Both the position numbers and the translations under genes were made by a program. A stretch of 22,463 nt of DNA from a virus. Positions 840 to 11,768 of the stretch are shown here, piece after piece (within the stretch, counting starts at the first letter, position 1; each line of letters opens with the position of its first letter). The stretch is taken from positions 1 through 22,463 of IMG/VR virus record IMGVR_UViG_3300007640_000265. The stretch is one strand, 5' to 3'. The notes beneath the pieces are model-generated. The model was given only the letters and a program-made list of their open reading frames with translations. It had not been told where the DNA came from and did not search any database.

Positions 840-3128
840 TTAGATGTTATCGCGCCCGGTTTGACGTTCGTATTCTCCGCGAGACAAGGGTCCGTCCATA
901 GTCCCAAGCCACTTCTCTTCGCCACTTGTTGTCAGCGCGTACTTGCGAATCATGCCTTGCTCCATGGCTTTAGTCACCAATCCTTTAACTGTGGTGCGCT
1001 GGCCTGCATTCTTGAGAGCGATAATGCATGGTTCATTAGGCTCTGATTCTTGAACGACATTGTAAACGCCATCGTTCTTGCCATCATGGGTAAGCGCACG
1101 ACCTTCGTTCTCACGCATACGGACTAGATCAACAAGATGCGCGAGGCGATCACGCTGCGTCTGAGATAGGATAAGCGATGCGATGTCCACGCTACGATCT
1201 TCAAGCAATCCTGTGTCTGGATTACGAATGAAGTGACGGATTTCACGATTGGCAGGACCGTTGGATTTAACGACTGCGCCGTCAAACACACCGTTTCGTG
1301 TATATGGAATGTTGAGGTCACGACAGCGTTGCTTGGCTGTTCCCTCATCGACAGACCAGACAGCGAATGCCGAGCGAACGCCATCAACGATAGCGGATGT
1401 GCCGCGAATAAGATTTCGCGCTTGCTCTGGTGTTGTGACTGGATCGTTGTCTCTGATCTTCGCCATGTGGTGGTTGACCATGACAGTTGCACCTGTCTCT
1501 GTTGCCATCTGTGCGAGCAGACCCATGAATGCAGCACCCGCTGCGGGATCAGCGTTCACATCTGCGTGAACAAATGATGCGAGCGGGTCAATAACGATGA
1601 GCTTAAGATTATCCATCTCTAGCATTTGATCGTAGATGCGAGAGAAGTCTGGACCCACTTCGTAAGAGTTATCGACCTTCATCATGATTGGGAATACGCC
1701 GCCGAGGTTGGGCAATGGTAGAACGCGCAGCTTGTGATCGTAGTGTTCACGATAGCCCATGGGATCAAGACGAGAGATACGTCTGTGCATCTCGTCCTTG
1801 TCATCCTCTGCGGTCAGGATGATTGCATCACCGTGCTCTGCGACTAGGCCACCGAATGCGTTTTGCATAGATGCGCCAGAGGCGACCTTCATGGCTAAGT
1901 CGAGCGTCATCATACCTTTGCCCGAGTCACCTGCCGCTGCGAATACCACTGGCACACCAAGGGGCAGCGTGTCTCCGATAAGAAACTTTTGCTGTGGTGG
2001 CGAGCCAACAAAGTATTCGTTGACCAACAGACTATTGTCTAAAAGATTGATCGGCTTTTTTACTTTGTTTTCATGGCTTTGCAAGAAGTTGCTAACGCTA
2101 AATTCTTCTTCGATAGCGTCCGCTGCGTCCCACTTTTCAGGCTTCGACGCAGGGATGTGCAGCATCAAAGTTGACTTTGCCCCTGCTTGTTTCGCCTGCG
2201 CTTCTACGATCTTTGCTAGGCGTTTGCCTGCCTCATCGTTGTCAGGCCAGAGGATGACTTCTTTGTTGCGCAAGGGGGAGAAGTCAAATTTATGCGCGGT
2301 GTTTTCGGAGAGCATGCCCGAACCACCAATGGTGCAGGTAGCTGCATATCCGAGTTCCGTGAGTGCGTCCGCGCACTTCTCCCCCTCGACCCAGATAACC
2401 TTGTCGGCTGCTAGGATGTCGGGTATATTGTATAGGGGTCTAGGTTCGGGTAAACCTTGACGACCATTCATGAACTGGCGGAATTGCTTCTTAGGCTTTC
2501 CAGAGTCATTCCGAACAATTTCGCCAGTCTCATCTCTATCAAAGTATTTACGCACAGTAACGAGCACTTCACCGTGTTCGTCGGTGTAGGTGTACTCATC
2601 TTCGTAGGGCGTGTTTGGCCCAATCTGCTGCTTGACTGGCTTTTGTTCGGGTTGTTGAAAGCCGTTGGTAGCTGTGGTGTTTGTGACCTGAAAGTTCTGC
2701 GGATTGTTATTGAGCTTTACGATGTTTTCAGGTGGGGCCACATAGTCAGGCGTGAGGTAGGATTCAAAGTAATCCGCAACCTCTTGCATTGTCCAACCGC
2801 GACCTTCTTTTAGCACTTTTGAAATGCCGCCTACACCGTCACCAGACTCAAAATCTTTGCCAGACATGAACCATGGACTGTTGATGTCGATATTAATTCT
2901 TAGCGATTGACCCTTTTCACCACCCAGTGAGCCGAGCATAAAATCATTCCCGCGAATCATTCCCTGCGGGTACGTTTCTATTAATGCCTGCCGCTGAACA
3001 CTGCGTGGAACTTCGCGAGAAATACGCTCTGCGATGTCTTTTGATGACTTGCCAAACCTTCCCAAACTCATTATCTTGTCCTCATACCCAAACGATCTAC
3101 TAGATATGGGGTGATGCTCTCCTCGCAT
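840..3128 (-). CDS. Replicative primase/helicase (Toprim + RepA-like AAA)
   Basis: This 762-residue protein combines a Toprim domain with a RepA/AAA_25-type helicase ATPase. Its likely role is to prime and unwind the phage replication fork. Residues about 60-125 resemble a primase N-terminal region, but no zinc-finger cysteines are seen. The Toprim segment is at about 240-305, with VIWVEGE (catalytic Glu) and WPDNDEAGK (acidic pair). The ATPase is at about 385-600. It has Walker A GDSGKGM near 400, the family motif EDDKDEMHRR near 441, Walker B LIVIDP near 510 and RGTSAIVDGVR near 575. A wing-like C-terminus follows. The start at 3128 leaves a 12-base gap after the nuclease gene but has a weak ribosome site. 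The internal ATG at 3071 (MSLGRFGKS) is preceded by GAGG and may be the true start. A terminator follows at 813-781. Confidence 0.9.
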   Translation of the reverse strand: MRGEHHPISSRSFGYEDKIMSLGRFGKSSKDIAERISREVPRSVQRQALIETYPQGMIRGNDFMLGSLGGEKGQSLRINIDINSPWFMSGKDFESGDGVGGISKVLKEGRGWTMQEVADYFESYLTPDYVAPPENIVKLNNNPQNFQVTNTTATNGFQQPEQKPVKQQIGPNTPYEDEYTYTDEHGEVLVTVRKYFDRDETGEIVRNDSGKPKKQFRQFMNGRQGLPEPRPLYNIPDILAADKVIWVEGEKCADALTELGYAATCTIGGSGMLSENTAHKFDFSPLRNKEVILWPDNDEAGKRLAKIVEAQAKQAGAKSTLMLHIPASKPEKWDAADAIEEEFSVSNFLQSHENKVKKPINLLDNSLLVNEYFVGSPPQQKFLIGDTLPLGVPVVFAAAGDSGKGMMTLDLAMKVASGASMQNAFGGLVAEHGDAIILTAEDDKDEMHRRISRLDPMGYREHYDHKLRVLPLPNLGGVFPIMMKVDNSYEVGPDFSRIYDQMLEMDNLKLIVIDPLASFVHADVNADPAAGAAFMGLLAQMATETGATVMVNHHMAKIRDNDPVTTPEQARNLIRGTSAIVDGVRSAFAVWSVDEGTAKQRCRDLNIPYTRNGVFDGAVVKSNGPANREIRHFIRNPDTGLLEDRSVDIASLILSQTQRDRLAHLVDLVRMRENEGRALTHDGKNDGVYNVVQESEPNEPCIIALKNAGQRTTVKGLVTKAMEQGMIRKYALTTSGEEKWLGTMDGPLSRGEYERQTGRDNI

Positions 3129-3140
3129 TGCCCCATTTTT

Positions 3141-3926
3141 TTATTCAGCCCAACAAGTATTCTGGTATTCACAGAATTTGCAGAGAAAAAAATCTTTGCT
3201 TTGCGCTATTCGAGGCAGCATGTCATTGGCTTTTGCAGCCGTCAATATATTTACTGCCTTATCGCTCGCTTGCTGTGCGAGCACAGGATTGTACGGAACC
3301 AGTTCGTAGTAGACTTCTGATGTATTTTTATTGACTACGGTAAACAGCGCGGGGTTGTCCGTTAGCTCCATGTACGTTTGGTATAGCGCAATCTGTGTTG
3401 CGTATGTTGGATTTGCTTTTGCTACACCATGCCGAACAAATGATTGGAACTTTTTATCGTTCGCTGATTTGTTTTCCCACAGGCATGGGTAGTCCATTTC
3501 AACTGGACCGCCACATAGCACACCGTCGATGTGACCTCTGATTTCGCCGTCAGCGATTGAGAAACCGAACTGTTCGCCGTTCTTATCTTCTGTGCGCAGA
3601 TCGAACCCTGCGTCACGAAACCACTTGGCGACATAATCTTCGATGTGATGACCGAACTCAAAAATGCGCAGCGTTTGTGCGCTAAACTCTTTCCCTTCGT
3701 CTATGGGATGGTTCAGGTAGCGATACTGTATTTTGCGCGAGCATTCATCACCAATGCTTGATGCGCCGATATACTTGCGGCGTTCGCGCTTTCCTTCTCT
3801 TGCAACAATCGAATTGTCGATTGCTGCTTTGATGTGCTCCACTGCGGGATCATCAATCCTAGAATGGGATTGAAGTAGAAGGCCAACTGCCTGTTGACTT
3901 AAAGTAGGTTTCTTCGAGCTTTCCAA
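3141..3926 (-). CDS. Cas4/RecB-like PD-(D/E)XK exonuclease with Fe-S cluster
   Basis: This 261-residue protein has the layout of a PD-(D/E)XK exonuclease with a probable 4Fe-4S cluster, as in Cas4 and AddB-type nucleases. Visible elements, in order: a Cys in GDECSRK (about residue 61), GHHIEDYV (about 92), GHIDGV with the metal-binding Asp (about 131), ENKSA with the Glu-x-Lys catalytic pair (about 151), a Gln-containing helix ATQIALYQTY (about 176), and a C-terminal CKFCEYQNTC. One early cysteine plus three late ones is the usual Fe-S pattern. It probably processes DNA ends for recombination or genome maturation beside the helicase and Sak4-like ATPase. The start codon is TTG (3926-3924) with GGAG about 7 bases upstream. 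It overlaps the previous gene by 68 bases. No CRISPR array or other cas gene is present. Confidence 0.85.
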   Translation of the reverse strand: MESSKKPTLSQQAVGLLLQSHSRIDDPAVEHIKAAIDNSIVAREGKRERRKYIGASSIGDECSRKIQYRYLNHPIDEGKEFSAQTLRIFEFGHHIEDYVAKWFRDAGFDLRTEDKNGEQFGFSIADGEIRGHIDGVLCGGPVEMDYPCLWENKSANDKKFQSFVRHGVAKANPTYATQIALYQTYMELTDNPALFTVVNKNTSEVYYELVPYNPVLAQQASDKAVNILTAAKANDMLPRIAQSKDFFLCKFCEYQNTCWAE

Positions 3927-4083
3927 TGTTAATCTCCGCTGCTAGACGTTCTGCTTCCTGTAATCCAAAGATGAGTGTGTGGACTTGATCTTCTGTTAGG
4001 TCAGAGAATCGGGTGTCCCACCCAAACTTTCCAAGTATAAATGCCAACTCTTCGATTGGCTTTGGTGCTGCTGGCACTGTCAA
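3859..4083 (-). CDS. Hypothetical small protein, TTG start
   Basis: This encodes 74 residues of unknown function. The start appears to be TTG (4083-4081), which overlaps the stop of the upstream gene as TTGA. The purine-rich AAGGGAG lies about 8 bases upstream and supports this start. The sequence has a Pro/Ala-rich opening and a helical central part with EELAFILGKFGW and DLTEDQVHTLIFGLQEAERL. The second half is acidic and Leu-rich like a small helical bundle. Its last 68 bases overlap the start of the nuclease gene in another frame, which suggests translational coupling. I do not recognise a family. Confidence 0.65.
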   Translation of the reverse strand: MTVPAAPKPIEELAFILGKFGWDTRFSDLTEDQVHTLIFGLQEAERLAAEINIGKLEETYFKSTGSWPSTSIPF

Positions 4084-4388
4084 TGCATTGTCTCCCTTCC
4101 TGTTGAGCCGAACAATTCTATGACTTCATTGATTTCGTCCGGGTCTGCATCTTTGTTTCGAAAGCCGATGTTCAAGACTTCTTGGCCTTCGATGATGACT
4201 GTTGCTGTACCGAACAAGACAACATGTTCGGCTTCTTCTATATGATCCTGAATGACCTCATTGGCTGCTTTTTGAACTTCGGCAATATTACTGGGATCAT
4301 TGACCCAACAAACCATTTCGAACTCTGATGTTTCGACGTTTTCATCGTCTTGTTCAGCAATCATCAGGTACATTTCAAATCTCGGCAT
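4080..4388 (-). CDS. Hypothetical acidic protein
   Basis: This encodes 102 residues of unknown function that are strongly acidic, with many Glu/Asp in EQDDENVETSEFEM and NKDADPDEINEV. I place the start at ATG 4388 because GGAG lies about 8 bases upstream. An extension to 4403 would start inside the previous gene, and an internal ATG at 4373 (MYLMIAEQ) is another possibility. The protein may adopt a small alpha/beta fold. The gene contains two CCGAACAA motifs. One of them (4210-4217) is part of the inverted repeat CCGAACA-N8-TGTTCGG at 4210-4231. It overlaps the upstream gene by 14 bases and the downstream TTG-start gene by 4. Confidence 0.7.
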   Translation of the reverse strand: MPRFEMYLMIAEQDDENVETSEFEMVCWVNDPSNIAEVQKAANEVIQDHIEEAEHVVLFGTATVIIEGQEVLNIGFRNKDADPDEINEVIELFGSTGRETMH

Positions 4389-4539
4389 TCGGCTTCTCCA
4401 CAATGCGTTTGGCTAGATCAGCGATTAGATTAGCCGTTGCTCTTGTGGTTAACTCTACATGACCGACCTCTTTGCCGTCTACCCACATGTAAACGACAGG
4501 TCCGTCAGCCCCATCTCGTACTGTAATTAGCTTTATCAT
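4375..4539 (-). CDS. Hypothetical 54-aa protein
   Basis: ATG 4539-4537 overlaps the helicase stop as ATGA, giving a 54-residue protein. A longer frame open from 4728 lies out of frame inside the helicase gene and should not be used. The sequence begins MIKLITVRDG and contains VVYMWVDGKEVGHVEL, which reads like paired beta strands. It ends in a helix, TANLIADLAKRIVEK. That beta-beta-helix pattern suits a small phage accessory protein, but I recognise no family. It is probably translationally coupled to the helicase. Confidence 0.7.
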   Translation of the reverse strand: MIKLITVRDGADGPVVYMWVDGKEVGHVELTTRATANLIADLAKRIVEKPNAEI

Positions 4540-6230
4540 TCTGCTGCCTGTTGCATGATTTTTAGTTGCGCTTGATTGTAGTGAGCCTTGTAGCGATGCT
4601 CGGCCCATAGGAATCCAAGAGCGCAGCTTGCGCGATACTTGGTCCATGAGAAGTCCATGACGTTTACCTCGACACCTGCATTTCGTAGCAATTCGATTTG
4701 CTTTGCTGATGCTTTCTGGTTGAGCCAACGCTTGGTTTTGTTTGCTGCATTGTCGTCTTCGATCTCACGCAGGAAGTCATCCGCTGCTCGCATTGCATTG
4801 ATCTTGTCACCAATGGCAACTGTGCGCACTGGCATGGACTGTGGCTTGACCATAGCGACCCAAAAGTCATTGACGTATAGCGGAGCGATACAAACAACGC
4901 CGTTGAATCCAAGAGCCATCATAATGTCGCTCTCAGGGAATGGTTCGATCCACAAGAATGGCGACATCTTCATTAGATCGTACTCAGTCATCACAAAGTT
5001 TTCGAGTACGTCTTTTTCGGCTTTCTGGAAGATGTGACCACAGAATGGACATTCGCGTGTGGTTGGCGCGACTTCAGCTTCACATTCTGGGCATACCTTA
5101 ACTGGAGCTTCGCCACCCTCTCGCTTGACTGCGCCATCTAGGTTGGCTGTGTCATCAAGAGAACCGTGCGTAATAACGGACGTTCCAAAGTCCATGACGA
5201 TGCAGTCTGTCTTGACCGTATTCGGATATAGCTCAGGATCAACGATGCGCAGCCCACGACCAATCATCTGCACCATAGTGCCCTTCTGGGAGCATGGACG
5301 CGTTAGGACAACGCAAGAAACTGGTGGAGCATCGAAACCCTCTGTAAGCACCGCTACGTTCACAATTACCTGTGTGTCGCCATGCTCTAGGTCATGCAGC
5401 ATTTGCTCACGCTCGCCTTTGTCTGTCTCTCCTGTGACGTAATCAGCTTTGATGCCTGCGAGCAGGAAGGCTTCGCAAAGATGTTCGGCATGTTTGACTG
5501 TGGAGCAGAACACAACTGTCTTGCGATCACCTGCCTTATCCTGCCATTCCCGAACAATTCTATCGTTAATGACTTGGCGGTCCATAATCGCGGCGACCTC
5601 TTCCATGTCGTACTCTTTGCCGCGCTTAGTAACTTTGTTCAGATCATCGTTTACGCCAAGGTCAACGACAAACGTCTTGGGGCGCACAAGATAGCCTTCA
5701 TGAATTAATGTTGCTAATTCGATCTGATGTGCGCAATTATTGAAAACCGAACGTAGACCTTTGCCATCCCCACGGTTGGGTGTAGCTGTGAAGCCCACGA
5801 TTTCTGCGGTGTCATTGTCTTCAAGGATAGCGTCAATTACACGGCGATACGTGGGAGCCGCTGCATGGTGGCCTTCGTCAATGACGACCATATCGAACTT
5901 GGGACGCTTTGCGAGATTGCGTTCACGCGAAATGGTTTGCACCATTGAGAACACGGCATCTCCTTCCCAGTGTTTGACCGTACCGTTAACGATACTTGTG
6001 GTCATCAGGGGATTTACCTTTTTGAACTTGGATTCGTTTTGCTCAACAAGTTCGTCGCGATGCTGAACGACTAGAATCTTTTTGCCCTTCTTGTGACGCT
6101 TGCCTACGAGCGCAGAGAGCATGATGGTTTTGCCTGCACCTGTTGGTGCGACAACTAAAGTGTTGCCGTGCTTGTCGAGCGCAGAAAGCGCGTCATTCAC
6201 GGCTACCTCTTGGTAGGGACGTAGTAACAT
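4536..6230 (-). CDS. DEAD/DEAH-box superfamily 2 helicase with zinc ribbon
   Basis: This 564-residue SF2 helicase resembles the ResIII/UvsW-like enzymes that phages use to unwind branched DNA during recombination and replication. Seen in order: Q-motif region LRPYQEVAV at the N-terminus, Walker A APTGAGKT (about 28-35), motif II DEGHH (about 118-122), motif III GFTATP (about 146-151), motif V VLTEGFD (about 294-300) and motif VI QMIGRGLR (about 321-328). A four-cysteine zinc ribbon, CPEC...CPFC (about 380-397), follows the helicase core. The C-terminal 160 residues contain KRWLNQKASAKQIELLRNAG and look like a DNA-binding or partner-binding extension. A 94-base GC-rich intergenic region with alternative hairpins precedes the gene, unlike most junctions here. 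The ATG at 6230 has a modest AGGTG site. Confidence 0.93.
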   Translation of the reverse strand: MLLRPYQEVAVNDALSALDKHGNTLVVAPTGAGKTIMLSALVGKRHKKGKKILVVQHRDELVEQNESKFKKVNPLMTTSIVNGTVKHWEGDAVFSMVQTISRERNLAKRPKFDMVVIDEGHHAAAPTYRRVIDAILEDNDTAEIVGFTATPNRGDGKGLRSVFNNCAHQIELATLIHEGYLVRPKTFVVDLGVNDDLNKVTKRGKEYDMEEVAAIMDRQVINDRIVREWQDKAGDRKTVVFCSTVKHAEHLCEAFLLAGIKADYVTGETDKGEREQMLHDLEHGDTQVIVNVAVLTEGFDAPPVSCVVLTRPCSQKGTMVQMIGRGLRIVDPELYPNTVKTDCIVMDFGTSVITHGSLDDTANLDGAVKREGGEAPVKVCPECEAEVAPTTRECPFCGHIFQKAEKDVLENFVMTEYDLMKMSPFLWIEPFPESDIMMALGFNGVVCIAPLYVNDFWVAMVKPQSMPVRTVAIGDKINAMRAADDFLREIEDDNAANKTKRWLNQKASAKQIELLRNAGVEVNVMDFSWTKYRASCALGFLWAEHRYKAHYNQAQLKIMQQAAE

Positions 6231-6257
6231 TGGAACACCTATTCGCTAGAAAAGTGA

Positions 6258-6292
6258 GGGGGGATTGCGGCCCACGGCCCCCCTGTCCGTGG
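6258..6292 (-). promoter_or_regulatory. Mutually exclusive GC-rich hairpins before helicase gene
   Basis: Two structures compete for the same bases. A six-base G-run at 6258-6263 can pair with a C-run at 6278-6283. On the minus transcript this stem is followed by TCAC-TTTT, like a terminator. Alternatively CCACGG at 6272-6277 pairs with CCGTGG at 6287-6292. The heptamer CGCTAGA flanks the area as a direct repeat (6244-6250 and 6318-6324). The arrangement resembles an attenuator, but this is inference from pairing by eye. Confidence 0.4.
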
Positions 6293-6324
6293 TCTAGCAG
6301 GCGCGGATTGGCCTTGCCGCTAGA

Positions 6325-6948
6325 TTAGCGTTGCGCCCATGACGGAACTGCACCAGATGCTTGAGGCTGCGCAGGGGCAGTCTGTTGCATATTCTGAGCA
6401 GCCGCAGGGGTCTGCATTACAGGAGCTTGTCCACTTGGAACGAACTCCCGCGAATTAGGTGTTAGGGCAGCGATCAGACGATTGCTATCAGCGTAACCGT
6501 TTGTGCCCTTCTTAATGCCGACCTTAGCACAGATTTCCAATGCGTTTAAGTCAAAAACGCCAGAAATGTTACGAGCTTGCTGTGCCTGCGGCGACATGTC
6601 CGCAGGATCAATGTTACGCGCACTTTCGACCAATGACTTCAATGTGCGTAAACCAATCTCTTTGGCTTGTGGCATACCGCTTGGACCCATCTTGTCACCA
6701 TCGACAAAGACGCGATCCCAGAACTTGCGGCGATCATATTCGCCACCAACGATAGTGAACTCAAGTTCCATCCACTTTGCCGCTGTGGACATGGATTTCT
6801 TAAACCACATACCTGCGCCAAATTCAGCGATTTCCATATCGCCTTGCTTGACGACCATGACCGCGCGACAGACTGTGCCGTTTGGAATTAGAGAGAACTC
6901 ACGTTCCTGTGGATTATTGTCCTGTGGGACTTCATTAAGATTAAGCAT
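6325..6948 (-). CDS. DUF669-family protein, likely ssDNA-binding
   Basis: This 207-residue protein resembles the DUF669 family, which in phages often sits beside Sak4-like ATPases and is thought to bind single-stranded DNA. The N-terminal two thirds is a beta-rich domain. It contains LIPNGTVCRAVMVVKQG (about 20-36), WMELEFTIVGGEYDRRKFWD (about 57-76) and AKVGIKKGTNGY (about 141-152), which match the family pattern as I know it. The last 40 residues are Gln/Ala/Pro-rich and low in complexity, ending PSWAQR, like the flexible tail of an SSB protein. Its ATG at 6948 has GAGG upstream. The gene overlaps the end of the ATPase gene by 8 bases, so the two are probably produced together. Confidence 0.8.
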   Translation of the reverse strand: MLNLNEVPQDNNPQEREFSLIPNGTVCRAVMVVKQGDMEIAEFGAGMWFKKSMSTAAKWMELEFTIVGGEYDRRKFWDRVFVDGDKMGPSGMPQAKEIGLRTLKSLVESARNIDPADMSPQAQQARNISGVFDLNALEICAKVGIKKGTNGYADSNRLIAALTPNSREFVPSGQAPVMQTPAAAQNMQQTAPAQPQASGAVPSWAQR

Positions 6949-7813
6949 TTACTTGTTCCTCTTCGCTAGAGTGTTGTGTTGAGGGATCGACGAATGTCAA
7001 TTCCTTGTTAGGTTCTGGCTTACCGCTACTCATTTTATCCATAAGTTTACCCAAGTGCGGTTCTTCCAACGTGTCTAGCCTACCCGAACGATCTTTTGCG
7101 GGATAGCCCCACTCATTCAACGGCTGACACACGAAAGCACGATACTGACCGTGATCACCAGTTAGAATTGCCATTGTGATCATTTCATCAACAATCCCGG
7201 GCAATTCACGACCAGTTTTCGAGCCTTCAATTTGCAGCGCATATTGCTTGCGCCCATAATCATCTGTGATCTCATCTAAGATGCCGACAAAGATAACGTT
7301 CTTTTCGCGGATGTGTTGCAGGTGTGTTAGCCAAGACATCATTTCGCGACCATGCATCCCATAGGCTGCACGAGTATCTAGCTTCCCAGAGCGATCAGAA
7401 CGCGCCTCTGGTTGCTGTAGACACCACTGGAAGCACAAACGTCCTGCAACTGTAATAGAGTCTACAAAGAGCGTATCGTACTTCGACATCATTTCCACGC
7501 TGTCACCAAACATCGACACGACATAATCGTAGTGCGCTTGACTGTATGGCTGATCTTCACTCAGCGCGGGATTTGGACCCCCAATAAAACATGCGAGGTC
7601 ACGACACTCTTGCCATGTTCGTGGACGTAGAACGTCAACAGGGAACCCTTCGATAGCGGCATCCCCTGCCTCTAAGTCTAAGAACACAGTGGATTCAGGA
7701 TTTAGGGTACGGGCCAGTGTGGTTTTACCCACACCGCTTGCACCGCATACTACGATCTTGTGGCCTTTCTTTTCAGCTAGGCGTTGATCGGCTGTGATAA
7801 TTTGTAGGGCCAT
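6941..7813 (-). CDS. Sak4-like AAA ATPase (RecA-type single-strand annealing)
   Basis: This 290-residue protein resembles the AAA_24/Sak4 group of RecA-fold ATPases, phage recombinases that anneal or exchange single strands. Walker A GASGVGKT is at about 24-31, followed by TVFLDLEAG (about 42-50). The Walker B region is TLFVDS (about 114-119). A sensor-like segment VIFVGILDEITDDYG (about 173-187) and a conserved QIEGSKTGRELPGIVDE block follow. The start overlaps the previous stop as TAATG. The gene is flanked by a DUF669 SSB-like gene and a small coiled-coil gene, an arrangement that supports a recombination role. Confidence 0.87.
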   Translation of the reverse strand: MALQIITADQRLAEKKGHKIVVCGASGVGKTTLARTLNPESTVFLDLEAGDAAIEGFPVDVLRPRTWQECRDLACFIGGPNPALSEDQPYSQAHYDYVVSMFGDSVEMMSKYDTLFVDSITVAGRLCFQWCLQQPEARSDRSGKLDTRAAYGMHGREMMSWLTHLQHIREKNVIFVGILDEITDDYGRKQYALQIEGSKTGRELPGIVDEMITMAILTGDHGQYRAFVCQPLNEWGYPAKDRSGRLDTLEEPHLGKLMDKMSSGKPEPNKELTFVDPSTQHSSEEEQVNA

Positions 7814-8211
7814 TAGTCTACCTCTTCGATTGAGAAACCACCAATTTCCACGCTACGGCATGGCTCAAGCATTTCTTGAATAGCGGGTGGTGCGGCTGTG
7901 TATTTACGCTCATCTACTGCAAGCGTAAGTTTTCCATAGTGACGTGCATCCTGCTCTGGCATGGACTGCAACACGTTACCAAGCTGATCTTGATCCCACA
8001 CGACCTTCTTGCGCACCGTAGCTTTGAGCTTACGATTACCCGCAACAATATATGTGGTGCCAAAGTCTTTACCGTCTGCGCGTAACGCATCACGGGCTTG
8101 GTCTAAGAATGTATCTGAGATTTGTTGTTCGATGTCTTTAAGTTCGACCTTCAAGTCCGCAATCACGTACTTGAGTTCTTCTCGACGTTCGAACAGTTCA
8201 CGACTATTCAT
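7813..8211 (-). CDS. Hypothetical coiled-coil protein of recombination module
   Basis: This encodes 132 residues. About residues 5-45 form a charged, heptad-like helix (ERREELKYVIADLKVELKDI), probably a coiled coil. The rest is mixed alpha/beta with KLKATVRKKVVWDQDQLGNV and YGKLTLAVDERKYTAAPP. Small proteins of this general shape often precede Sak4-like ATPases in phages, but I cannot name the family with confidence. The ATG at 8211 has a clear AAAGGA site 5-7 bases upstream. This is the first gene after the promoter and operator candidate at 8276-8250, so it may open the early operon. Its stop overlaps the ATPase start. Confidence 0.75.
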   Translation of the reverse strand: MNSRELFERREELKYVIADLKVELKDIEQQISDTFLDQARDALRADGKDFGTTYIVAGNRKLKATVRKKVVWDQDQLGNVLQSMPEQDARHYGKLTLAVDERKYTAAPPAIQEMLEPCRSVEIGGFSIEEVD

Positions 8212-8249
8212 GTCGATTCCTTTCCGCTTTAAATTACTAGAACCCTATC

Positions 8250-8276
8250 TATCCCATATAGCTTGGGATATGTCAA
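8250..8276 (-). promoter_or_regulatory. Candidate early promoter with embedded inverted-repeat operator
   Basis: On the minus strand a consensus -35 TTGACA (8276-8271) overlaps the DUF1064 stop codon. Right behind it lies a perfect 7-base inverted repeat, TATCCCA-N7-TGGGATA (8270-8250 on the minus strand). It fills the space where a repressor would block polymerase. The -10 is weak (GATAGA or TAGATA, depending on spacing). The segment GCTTGGGAT (8261-8269, plus strand) recurs at 8617-8625 inside the candidate promoter of the regulator gene. The promoter would drive the recombination/replication genes. Confidence 0.45.
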
Positions 8277-8647
8277 CGACTTTTTTTAGATAAAAATATT
8301 TCTATGCCGTGAACAGCCTTCATGAGTTTCTTTTTTAGTTTAAACTCAGGGGTTTCGACGCCCTTGGCATCTTCGACCACCTCGTACCAGTCGCCGTTCT
8401 TGTCCTGCTTTTGATAGCGGAAGTCTGCAATGTATGCGCAAATCTTTTCACCATTGACCGCTATGTTGTACCGCACTTGTAGTTCAAGGTCTTTGACCCG
8501 ATCTGCGCGTTCGAGCGATTTCAGATACAAATACCGCTCTGACTCCCACTTGGAGTCAAACTTGATGCCATCCACAGTTACTTTCTTGTTGCCGTACTTG
8601 GGTCTTGACCCACGTCGCTTGGGATTATATACAGTAGGAAACGTCAT
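8273..8647 (-). CDS. DUF1064 nuclease, PD-(D/E)XK fold
   Basis: This 124-residue protein resembles DUF1064, a phage family with a PD-(D/E)XK nuclease fold related to Holliday junction resolvases. Seen: the N-terminal YGNKKVTVDGIKFDSKWESE, where the Glu of KWESERY is the likely first metal ligand (about residue 35). Then come YIADFRY with the conserved Asp (about 74) and VVEDAKG with the acidic-x-Lys catalytic pair (about 90-94). Its role is probably to resolve branched recombination or replication intermediates. The ATG at 8647 is only 2 bases from the ATG of the divergent plus-strand gene. It therefore has no private upstream region and must be transcribed by read-through from the virion genes or from a promoter inside the opposing gene. 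Confidence 0.85.
   Translation of the reverse strand: MTFPTVYNPKRRGSRPKYGNKKVTVDGIKFDSKWESERYLYLKSLERADRVKDLELQVRYNIAVNGEKICAYIADFRYQKQDKNGDWYEVVEDAKGVETPEFKLKKKLMKAVHGIEIFLSKKSR
8605..8633 (+). promoter_or_regulatory. Candidate promoter of the plus-strand regulator gene
   Basis: TTGACC (8605-8610) and TATACA (8628-8633) are separated by 17 bases, ahead of the plus-strand ATG at 8650. The -35 overlaps the short palindrome GGGTC-TT-GACCC (8600-8611), and the spacer holds GCTTGGGAT (8617-8625). The whole element lies within the opposite-strand DUF1064 coding region, so coding constraint may explain part of it. Confidence 0.4.
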
Positions 8648-8649
8648 TT

Positions 8650-8883
8650 ATGGGAAATTCCTCTATGCCAAATCCAGTAAAATACAAATCAGTCGGTGTT
8701 TCAATAGAGGCTTACGACAAATTAGTTTATATCGCAGAAAAAGAAGATCGCGCCATTGGGCGTCAGTTGTCGCGCATGATTGACGAGGCATACGATGAGA
8801 TTCAAGCGCGTGTGAACGCACGGCAATCATACCGCCCTGCCGCAGTTGGCATTGGCGGTATCGCTTCAGTTATTGAAGACTAG
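8650..8883 (+). CDS. Small ribbon-helix-helix-like regulator, only plus-strand gene
   Basis: This 77-residue protein resembles the Arc/CopG ribbon-helix-helix DNA-binding fold. A short basic strand KYKSVGVSIEAYDKLVYIAE (about 11-30) is followed by a second helix, IGRQLSRMIDEAYDEIQARV (about 37-56), and an Ala/Gly-rich tail. It is the only convincing plus-strand gene. Its start lies 2 bases from that of the divergent DUF1064 gene, and its TAG overlaps the TAG of the convergent 962-residue virion gene within CTAG. Minus-strand transcripts running from virion to replication genes would be antisense to it. The ATG at 8650 has AGGAAA about 10 bases upstream. A second in-frame ATG at 8665 (MPNPVKYK) is possible. 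A repressor or autoregulator role is inference from fold and position. Confidence 0.8.
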   Translation: MGNSSMPNPVKYKSVGVSIEAYDKLVYIAEKEDRAIGRQLSRMIDEAYDEIQARVNARQSYRPAAVGIGGIASVIED

Positions 8884-11768
8884 AGTAGTCCCATATTCCC
8901 AAGTCCGCCCAGTAGTGTAGCTGCCACTGCTGGGTTTTGCTTTGCCTGCTCACGAATGCTGGAGCTTTGCGGCAGGCTGGGCATTTCTACCGGGGCAACT
9001 TCAGGAACTGGAATAGTTGTTCGGGTTATCTGTGGCGCTGCCGGGACGCGAGATTCAAGTTGCTCGCCTAAGCCTTCAGCAATACGCTCCGCTTCCGCAC
9101 CTAATGAGGATGTAACTCCTGCAATGCCACGAGCAGTCTGCTGACGAGCCGCTGCGCCAAGAACATCGTTTAGTGTTTCTAAGAAAACCTTCATCTTTCC
9201 AGATTTAGTTTTTTGCGTTGCCGCCTGTGGTCCGTACTTCTTCATGAATGTTGTATAGAACGGTCCTGTGGACAGCACACGACCTACGACACTAAGCCGA
9301 GCAAGTGTTCCCAAATTCTCTAACGGACTGGCTGCAATGTTGGCGGCAACAAGATCACCACCTTCAGCAGATACGCCAAGAACCTTCATGTTTTGACCAA
9401 ATAAACCGATAGCTTTCGCTTCTTCTGGATCAAACAGCGCATCAATCTTGCCAGACTTTTTAGCCTGTTCGATTCGCTTGGATAGCAGTTTGAATGCTTT
9501 CTTGTCTGTTAAGAATGTATCTTCGAAGTCACCGATCAGACTTTGCATATAGTATGACTGCAACTCTGCGCGTTCCGCAGGCTTGTCTTTAAAGAACTTG
9601 CCTAGCTGTGTGATGTCTTCACCACGCATAGATGGGCTTGCAAGAAGATCAGCAGCTTCACTGGATGTGATGTTGCCGCTACGAAGTTTGCGAGCGACTT
9701 GAACTGCGTCAAAGTCTGCCTTCTCCTTCATAATATCCCGAACATTTTTTAGCAGATTGACGCCAGCATCGTCCGCCCCGGATGCAACAAAGTCATCAAT
9801 CACGCTTTGATCAATTCTAGTAAGAGACAAAGAATCTAGCTGGTCAGCCAGCTTTCTGACTTCTTTTGCTTGTGACCCGAACAATTCATCGGCTGTTGTG
9901 CCCAGCGCCTCCAGCTTTTCTTTAAATCTGCTACCACTAAACTTTCTTGTGGAATCTAAAGTTGATCCTGACTCACGCATTGCCTTACGCAACCATTCGC
10001 CTGCGGCACGATTGCGAATATCATCAAATGCACCTTTGCCTAGATTGGTTTCTATCACGGACTGAGCATCTTTTAAGAGCTTAGGGTTGTCTGCTCTAAT
10101 AAGGTTATTATAAGCATTTTGAGGGTTTAGTTCTTTCCCACCCTTTACTGCTTTGTTCAAACTTTTCAGGCTTGCCGCACTAGATGTTTTTTCAAACGCA
10201 TCCATGCCATCGCTAAAAAACTTGCGGACTTTAGGAATCTCTTGAGCGACCTTTCTCATCAATGCCTTGTCTTCAGCCGTGGCTGCACCAGACTCCATCA
10301 TGTCGCGGAAAGTCTTGCGACGGAATGCGTTTTCAACAGCTTGTGGTGAAATGAAAGCATCCAACTTATCAAGAAAGTTATCTTTCATTAATCTAACACT
10401 GTCTGAGCCATAGTTGCCCATCCATGTGTCATTCAATGTTTTACGAGCTTTGTAGATTTGAGTGAATGACGCATCGTCTGGCAGTTTCATCAATTCATCA
10501 ACAGCCTGTCGAGACTTTCCAAGGTTACCACTACCCGCTGCGACTAAACGATCTAGTTCAACCTGCGCATCTGCTTTCAATCCACGAGTGTTAAACAATC
10601 GCGCATCACCAACCGCACTTGTTGTTAAGTTCTGAATGTTGGCATATTTCTTTTGAACTTCATCATCAAATGCCTTGAAAGCATTTACAAAAGCATTTTG
10701 GATGTCTGCGTTGAGCGCAGCGTCTTTGTCCGCTGCTTTACCCATTTGAACCGCAATGTCATCCATGTGCTTGATTAGATTGTTTGTCGCCATCTTTTCA
10801 GCTTGCAACAATGCGGTGTCGCCTGACTTAACAGCGTTTGTCAAAACTGCCGCCGTGCGATCAATGTCCAAACCACCTTCAGCACCATATGATCTTAGCT
10901 TTTCTAAGTCAGCCATGATTTGATCATGATTGTCTCTAAGACGCTTAGATGTGCCCAATGCCTTTTCTGACATTGCTTGCTGACGACCAATCAATGATGG
11001 ACCGCCCATAGCTGAAATGGATGGTTTATAGTTAGAACCAATGGCCTCTGCGACTTCTTGCTGCGCTTGCGGTGTTAACTTCGCACCAACACGACCACGA
11101 CCCGCTATCCCGCCGAAACCTCTAGCAACAAGACCAAAGATACCTTCACCCGCAGCACCGATAGCTGCTTCGGTTAAGATGTCACCACCGATGTCGCCTA
11201 ATTCCTGACGCTGTACGCCCTGTAACGACTCTGTAGCTTCTTCAACAGCTTTACCTGCGCCAGTACCAAGTCCCGCACCGATAACCGCACCTAGAAGCGG
11301 CACAGGGATTGCTGCTTGCCCTGCAAGCGCACCTGCAACACCACCAACAATCTCTTCACCCGCAGAGCCTACAAAGTCTTGTAGGTCCATAAGAGAGAAA
11401 CCGCTTTCATCAATTGCTATTGGTTTATCGGTATCTACGCCAATTAACGCAGCACCTCTTGGTGTTAGGGCAAGATTGCCACGGCTATCACGGATGTAAT
11501 CACCTTCACGAAATCCGTACTTCGAAAGAACTGCTTCTTCTTCACCGCCTGTTTCAGCACGAGCCAACTGACGACGCAACTTAGATTCTCGAATCCCAGT
11601 CTCTCTGTCAATTGGTGTTTCATCTTTAGAGGCAAGTGGAGAAACTGGCCTGTCCATTTGCTTGATCAAACGCTCGGCTTGTAGCATCTCAGGATACGTT
11701 GGCTTATCCCCTTTGATTTCAAAAGGGATAAACTCTCCGGGTCTGATTTCAAGCTGAATCTCAGGCAT
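8880..11768 (-). CDS. Large putative internal/ejected virion protein
   Basis: This 962-residue protein of unknown function has the character of a phage internal or ejection protein. About residues 138-172 and 200-222 are Gly/Ala/Val-rich and hydrophobic, suggesting membrane-active segments that could help DNA cross the cell envelope. Most of the remainder is helical and charged. The C-terminus is Pro-rich (APVEMPSLPQSS) and ends in a small hydrophobic Leu/Gly tail. No lytic transglycosylase motif is evident. The start at 11768 follows the previous stop by 2 bases with AGGAAA upstream. Its stop overlaps that of the convergent regulator gene. Two CCGAACA-type motifs lie within the gene (about 9738 and 9878), with a reversed copy at 9018. 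The ejection role is inferred from composition and position among virion genes. Confidence 0.75.
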   Translation of the reverse strand: MPEIQLEIRPGEFIPFEIKGDKPTYPEMLQAERLIKQMDRPVSPLASKDETPIDRETGIRESKLRRQLARAETGGEEEAVLSKYGFREGDYIRDSRGNLALTPRGAALIGVDTDKPIAIDESGFSLMDLQDFVGSAGEEIVGGVAGALAGQAAIPVPLLGAVIGAGLGTGAGKAVEEATESLQGVQRQELGDIGGDILTEAAIGAAGEGIFGLVARGFGGIAGRGRVGAKLTPQAQQEVAEAIGSNYKPSISAMGGPSLIGRQQAMSEKALGTSKRLRDNHDQIMADLEKLRSYGAEGGLDIDRTAAVLTNAVKSGDTALLQAEKMATNNLIKHMDDIAVQMGKAADKDAALNADIQNAFVNAFKAFDDEVQKKYANIQNLTTSAVGDARLFNTRGLKADAQVELDRLVAAGSGNLGKSRQAVDELMKLPDDASFTQIYKARKTLNDTWMGNYGSDSVRLMKDNFLDKLDAFISPQAVENAFRRKTFRDMMESGAATAEDKALMRKVAQEIPKVRKFFSDGMDAFEKTSSAASLKSLNKAVKGGKELNPQNAYNNLIRADNPKLLKDAQSVIETNLGKGAFDDIRNRAAGEWLRKAMRESGSTLDSTRKFSGSRFKEKLEALGTTADELFGSQAKEVRKLADQLDSLSLTRIDQSVIDDFVASGADDAGVNLLKNVRDIMKEKADFDAVQVARKLRSGNITSSEAADLLASPSMRGEDITQLGKFFKDKPAERAELQSYYMQSLIGDFEDTFLTDKKAFKLLSKRIEQAKKSGKIDALFDPEEAKAIGLFGQNMKVLGVSAEGGDLVAANIAASPLENLGTLARLSVVGRVLSTGPFYTTFMKKYGPQAATQKTKSGKMKVFLETLNDVLGAAARQQTARGIAGVTSSLGAEAERIAEGLGEQLESRVPAAPQITRTTIPVPEVAPVEMPSLPQSSSIREQAKQNPAVAATLLGGLGNMGLL

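Follow-up and report, generated by a model that had tools for sequence, protein, structure and literature searches.

A small gene opposed to its neighbours in an uncultured phage group: a probable regulator with a candidate promoter and operator inside DUF1064

What is a single short gene doing on the plus strand of a phage genome whose neighbouring genes run the other way, and how might it be expressed from there? In the window, by which we mean the whole linear IMG/VR fragment of 22,463 bases analysed here, every other convincing gene lies on the minus strand: replication and recombination genes at 840-8647 (primase-helicase, Cas4-like nuclease, helicase, Sak4-like ATPase and DUF1064) and, from 8880 upward, presumed virion and lysis genes. 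The opposed frame has 77 codons (8650-8883) and is set between DUF1064 (8273-8647, minus strand), the first gene of the replication/recombination run, and a convergent minus-strand gene of 962 amino acids (8880-11768), presumably for an internal virion protein. DUF1064 is a Holliday-junction-resolvase-like nuclease gene, matching PF06356 (E=2.7e-20; 73.3 bits against a Pfam gathering cut-off of 24.7) and PHROG 190, ‘Holliday junction resolvase’ (E=9.5e-36); the 962-amino-acid gene, whose body is highly variable among relatives, has no significant match in Pfam or PHROG. An earlier note on this DNA called the small gene the only convincing one on the plus strand, which holds within the 22-kb fragment but not in relatives of 49-56 kb, where a further block of small genes lies on the same strand past the primase. 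This block (49714-56263 in G001, with equivalents in G002-G005, all near-complete) includes, as named by eye, Fis-like helix-turn-helix, gamma-glutamylcyclotransferase-like and Q/G/M-rich repetitive proteins, and an XRE-like one in G005. The closest match of the primase-helicase (840-3128, minus strand) in the collection is not from a marine phage; it is a Wolbachia phage WO protein, 38% over 93% of the length.

Searches with DUF1064 and the small protein gave about 150 loci, which after deduplication left more than 100 distinct IMG/VR relatives with the same three-gene order, so the synteny that the earlier note had suggested checking is indeed kept. Relatives with the same context and a degraded plus-strand frame, which it had named as grounds for giving up its reading, were also sought and none was found: in the enlarged set, the frame is broken in 0 of 111. 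The overlap of the two convergent stop codons within CTAG (8880-8883), likewise described there, is borne out as a 4-base overlap in all 107 complete loci, always of the form YTAR (CTAG, CTAA, TTAA or TTAG), and it persists even where the bodies of the convergent genes are only 22-26% identical. The small gene is also under purifying selection (median pN/pS 0.155). Judged by these comparisons between relatives, the small plus-strand frame is a real gene. Its start, however, is not the ATG placed earlier at two bases from that of DUF1064. Relatives share the protein sequence from MPNP onward, and their conserved start is the ATG at 8665, which lies 16-20 nt from the DUF1064 ATG and gives a gene of 72 amino acids (8665-8883, plus strand), intact in all relatives. 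The ATG at 8650 belongs to the invariant motif TTATGGGAA, and only 25 of 111 relatives have this ATG in frame with the small gene, so that the two-base spacing fits the longest frame of this clade and not the conserved start, and 8650 was rejected as a general start.

The earlier description of the product as a ribbon-helix-helix protein is plausible, though it stands on marginal scores. The pattern KSVGVSI-x-AYDKLxxIAxxEDRxIGRQLxRMIxxxY resembles a ribbon followed by helices A and B. The top PDB profile match, in register, is HP0222 (1x93), which we take to be a ribbon-helix-helix protein, with marginal E-values of 0.066 and 0.13. RHH_7 was matched, again marginally, in 4 of 24 members (best E 0.13), Mnt aligned in the expected helix register at a marginal P=0.026, and the similarity to Arc is marginal also. 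An AlphaFold monomer shows two fairly confident helices (14-27 and 29-55) and no beta strand, and hence no ribbon, at a mean pLDDT of 64-68; a structure search with this model, being below 70, returned nothing usable. The small protein is thus probably of ribbon-helix-helix type, with moderate support at most, and the gene probably encodes a DNA-binding regulator. After a linker variable in both length and sequence, the protein ends in a conserved acidic tail, SVIED or SVLED (8860-8883), like a short interaction motif.

To which of its two neighbours does the gene belong? Two relatives (L006 and L009) match the window at 99% identity in the small gene and 98% in DUF1064, but at only 24% in the virion gene; the drop in identity, from about 93% to 60% and then 45%, comes precisely at the shared stops. 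The small gene thus stays with DUF1064 when the virion gene is replaced, which places it on the replication side, and it was never seen apart from DUF1064. The module swap point is the stop codon of the convergent 962-amino-acid gene, which ranges from 22% to 100% identity among relatives and yet keeps its last 14 residues conserved (of ..ATLLGGLGNAGLL or ..LLGGLGNAGLL type). Elsewhere in the replication run, three relatives (L007, L009 and L011) have variable insertions between DUF1064 and the 132-amino-acid gene and between the latter and Sak4 (8212-8272 and 7813-8211 in the window); in L009, o132 lies about 500 bases further on, and the genes flanking the insertions stay 83-97% identical.

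The strongest mark left on this locus is found not in the small gene but in the opposing one. Codons 4-16 of DUF1064 (8600-8638) have almost no synonymous variation, and at codons 6-9, 12-14 and 16 it is zero among 109 sequences, against a mean synonymous-difference rate of about 0.4 over the whole gene. None of 20,000 permutations of codon columns matched the minimum of this stretch, in a shuffle which ignores the relatedness of the sequences, though one tree is common to all columns. The 5′ codons of three neighbours (Sak4, o132 and the ssb-like gene) vary synonymously as normal, and in the divergent L377, whose small protein is about 61% identical, the element is exact, yet 33 of 71 other same-residue DUF1064 codons are changed. 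Two other causes of such constraint were considered. An upstream coding extension of the small gene was rejected, since its spacing from DUF1064 varies between 16 and 20 nt and this shifts the frame; a hairpin in the DUF1064 mRNA was judged unlikely, because changes in the left arm break pairs without compensation, as seen by reading and not by computation.

Read on the plus strand, the element (CTTGACCCACGnnGnTTGGGATTATATACA) spells CTTGACC-N17-TATACA, that is, a putative −35 hexamer TTGACC at 8605-8610 (with CTTGAC at 8604-8609) and a −10 hexamer TATACA at 8628-8633, separated by a spacer of 17 nt, within the 16-18 nt of sigma70-type promoters. The −35 is invariant in 111 loci and in L377, and the TATA of the −10 is kept in its variants TATAGT (L315) and TATAAA (L201). 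This candidate promoter, hereafter P+, falls within codons 5-15 of DUF1064 (8605-8633) and its predicted start is near 8640, some 25 bases upstream of the ATG at 8665. Compared to the published alphaproteobacterial (Sinorhizobium) consensus, CTTGAC-N17-CTATAT (PMC2873474), the corresponding CTTGAC-N17-ATATAC agrees at 10 of 12 positions. By E. coli weights P+ is only average (mean p 0.36 against synonymous recoding), so the case for a promoter is built on conservation and position and not on score. Ten genomes have the pattern once each, and a scan of 2.9 million viral contigs gave 62 distinct matches, every one within a DUF1064 gene, with 61 facing the small gene and the sole exception on a contig ending there. 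From this we infer that DUF1064 codons 4-16 contain a sigma70-type promoter for the small gene.

The constraint does not stop at the two hexamers. The spacer (8619-8627) and the bases following the −35 (8611-8614) are invariant or nearly so, which, among these relatives, is more than a bare promoter needs. Four half-site-like TGGG words span this region and beyond (8599-8654): those at 8620 and 8651 on the plus strand and at 8609-8612 on the minus strand are present in 108 of 108 loci, and that at 8599, on the plus strand, in 105 of 108. Such words may constitute an operator overlapping the promoter. L377 is without TTATGGGAA and the TGGG copy it carries at 8651, and a few lineages (L076, L024) have lost the symmetry of a palindrome over the −35; as some lineages lack the upstream arm and some the TTATGGGAA copy, the comparison sets no outer limits to the putative operator and leaves 8605-8631 as its core. 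The same variation weakens the palindrome TGGGTC-TT-GACCCA as an essential operator, because a few lineages have changes in its left arm while its right arm is constant. TTATGGGAA itself (8648-8656, plus strand; 102 of 102) lies between the two start codons, where it may serve as leader and ribosome-binding region; one variant group has CATATATGGGAA in its place, and no second well-matching copy was found in most genomes. Its resemblance to the 3′ half of the T7 promoter brought up a T7-like phage promoter, which is disfavoured by the loss of the motif in L377. An RNA polymerase search in nine records gave no match, but the controls were without score too and the search is uninformative.

At its other end the small gene seems to be closed as well. 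A predicted intrinsic terminator, a hairpin of 11 pairs followed by TTTTGCTTTG, lies on the plus strand at 8907-8935, where the coding sequence of the convergent gene has its 3′ end; its −18.3 kcal/mol compares to a mean of −5.9 for synonymous recodings of the same C-terminus, and none of 60 reached it. Among 56 distinct relatives, a plus-strand terminator-like hairpin at p<=0.05 is present in 26, and in other clades none was found. With promoter, gene and terminator all inside two opposing genes, the small gene looks, in the clade of the window, like a complete transcription unit buried in two opposing coding sequences.

The reading we prefer, with a probability of roughly 0.55, is that the small gene encodes an autoregulated repressor which would gate entry into the replication operon, its promoter and operator being written into DUF1064. 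The phage of the window would then be a lytic, marine and podovirus-like one, in which a self-contained monocistronic regulator unit is set against the direction of the last virion gene on one side and of the first replication gene on the other. Host RNA polymerase would start near 8640 at the sigma70-type promoter lying entirely within the DUF1064 coding sequence, and the transcript would cover the 72-amino-acid gene and stop near 8940, at the hairpin in the 3′ end of the virion gene. The small protein, probably a ribbon-helix-helix one, would bind the extra invariant bases in and around the promoter and repress its own gene and, sitting on DUF1064 codons 3-16, might also limit minus-strand transcription into DUF1064 and the replication operon. 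Here we infer the binding of the protein to the element, as well as the direction and timing of its effect. More tentatively, and with some doubt, one may go further and imagine the repressor unit of a lytic phage (promoter, operator, gene and terminator) lying wholly within two opposing genes, with the operator writing the N-terminus of DUF1064, and protein binding and polymerase traffic together setting the switch.

The earlier note saw in the same layout a possible switch by mutual transcriptional interference, on top of any repression by the protein. In a fuller form of this reading, face-to-face promoters lying in each other's genes, together with late read-through from the virion genes, would exclude one another through occlusion, collision or antisense RNA, and the protein would add to this. 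There is some material for it. A candidate minus-strand promoter for DUF1064, P−, with TTGAAA-17-TTTACT, lies inside the small gene (8676-8704; in the window, p is about 0.09 relative to synonymous recoding), and most relatives have on that strand a sigma70-like promoter that outscores synonymous recodings (mean p 0.07, the relatives being non-independent), which is suggestive, so that the small gene and DUF1064 appear to carry each other's promoters. In the window the predicted starts of P+ and P− face each other about 30 bp apart, a geometry that allows interference; between 8273 and 8883 no terminator was called on the minus strand, and late antisense read-through over the small gene is therefore possible too. 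Precedents for such arrangements exist in coliphage 186 and in noncontiguous operons (PMC7498355, PMC7708051, PMC7154746). However, P− is not invariant as P+ is, its place and sequence differing between clades (elsewhere TTGACA-18-TATGTT, about 128 nt into the small gene). Plus-strand transcripts starting near 8640 would barely overlap DUF1064, reaching its first codons only, and the predicted terminator at 8907-8935 would end them soon after the small gene; both argue against interference as the main function. Conservation is at its strongest around the small gene's own promoter, which argues first for a regulated promoter, and the interference reading, which is less well supported than the regulation of P+, seems to us rather improbable as the primary explanation.

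That the protein acts elsewhere, on host promoters or host defence, with the element being simply its strong promoter, we hold to be unlikely. It would agree with the promoter core being the most conserved part, with the lack of a second copy of the element in the phage genomes, where no second phage target is therefore visible, and with a C-terminal tail (..SV(L/I)ED) that could contact a partner, but it leaves the invariance of the spacer and of 8611-8614 in excess of what a promoter needs, and the gene was in no case found away from DUF1064. Partition and the control of replication are among the other tasks of ribbon-helix-helix proteins, and the repeated TGGG words with an AT-rich stretch, occurring once per genome and adjoining the replication genes, could mark a replication origin or the site of an initiator protein, the small protein then being an accessory replication or partition factor. 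This is the least probable of the explanations, and quite improbable in itself, given that four genomes show no GC-skew turning point at the locus, that the element is promoter-shaped and at the right distance from the gene, and that variants of the −10 retain TATA.

As to the way of life of these phages, the PF00589 integrase, as a mark of the integration and lysogeny genes of temperate phages, was found in none of the five relatives of 49-56 kb, and all 14 control genomes scored. The sole match in the genome collection is a contig of a Rhodobacteraceae metagenome-assembled genome, which could be a binned phage. Three phages inspected for an opposed small gene beside DUF1064 (Azospirillum Cd, Rhizobium TM3_3_3 and Paracoccus Shpa) have none. 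The cultured relatives, by one virion protein of about 36% identity, are the Roseobacter phages CRP-901 and CRP-902, of similar genome size, with two functional modules and no RNA polymerase gene (PMC10149686); unlike the window, CRP-901 has its replication and virion modules on opposite strands, and in neither phage could the small gene be detected.

By analogy, the small-gene unit may work like the immI region of Salmonella phage P22 and the arrangement of coliphage 186, without any claim of membership in a switch family. In P22 immI (arc, mnt, ant and sar; NC_002371), a small ribbon-helix-helix repressor is found by opposed, overlapping promoters with its operator at the promoter, and an antisense RNA is also present; P22 is, however, temperate, its promoters lie between genes and not inside coding sequence, and arc is cotranscribed with ant. 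In coliphage 186 the early promoters pR and pL likewise face each other, with transcriptional interference and with regulators that bind in the stretch between (PMC7498355, PMC7708051), but this is a temperate CI/Apl switch of other protein families, whereas here the partner is a nuclease/replication operon and no integrase was found. The noncontiguous operons or excludons, in which an opposite-strand gene within a co-oriented run gives overlapping transcripts (PMC7154746), are similar in layout, which is the only likeness seen here; they were described in bacterial chromosomes, and in the clade of the window a terminator-like hairpin bounds the inserted gene. A literature search for ribbon-helix-helix early regulators of lytic phages yielded no paper that combined all of these terms.

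As far as we are aware, very little is known of how uncultured marine lytic phages control transcription, and here the comparison of sequences alone leads to one short, uniquely placed regulatory element and a probable protein to go with it. It suggests that, by constraint on the silent sites of its neighbour, a whole regulatory unit can be fitted in with hardly any DNA of its own, and that in a phage a regulator can stay with one module whilst the other is exchanged right at the shared stop codons. If this is true, the transition between the replication and virion genes of a widespread phage group would become directly testable.
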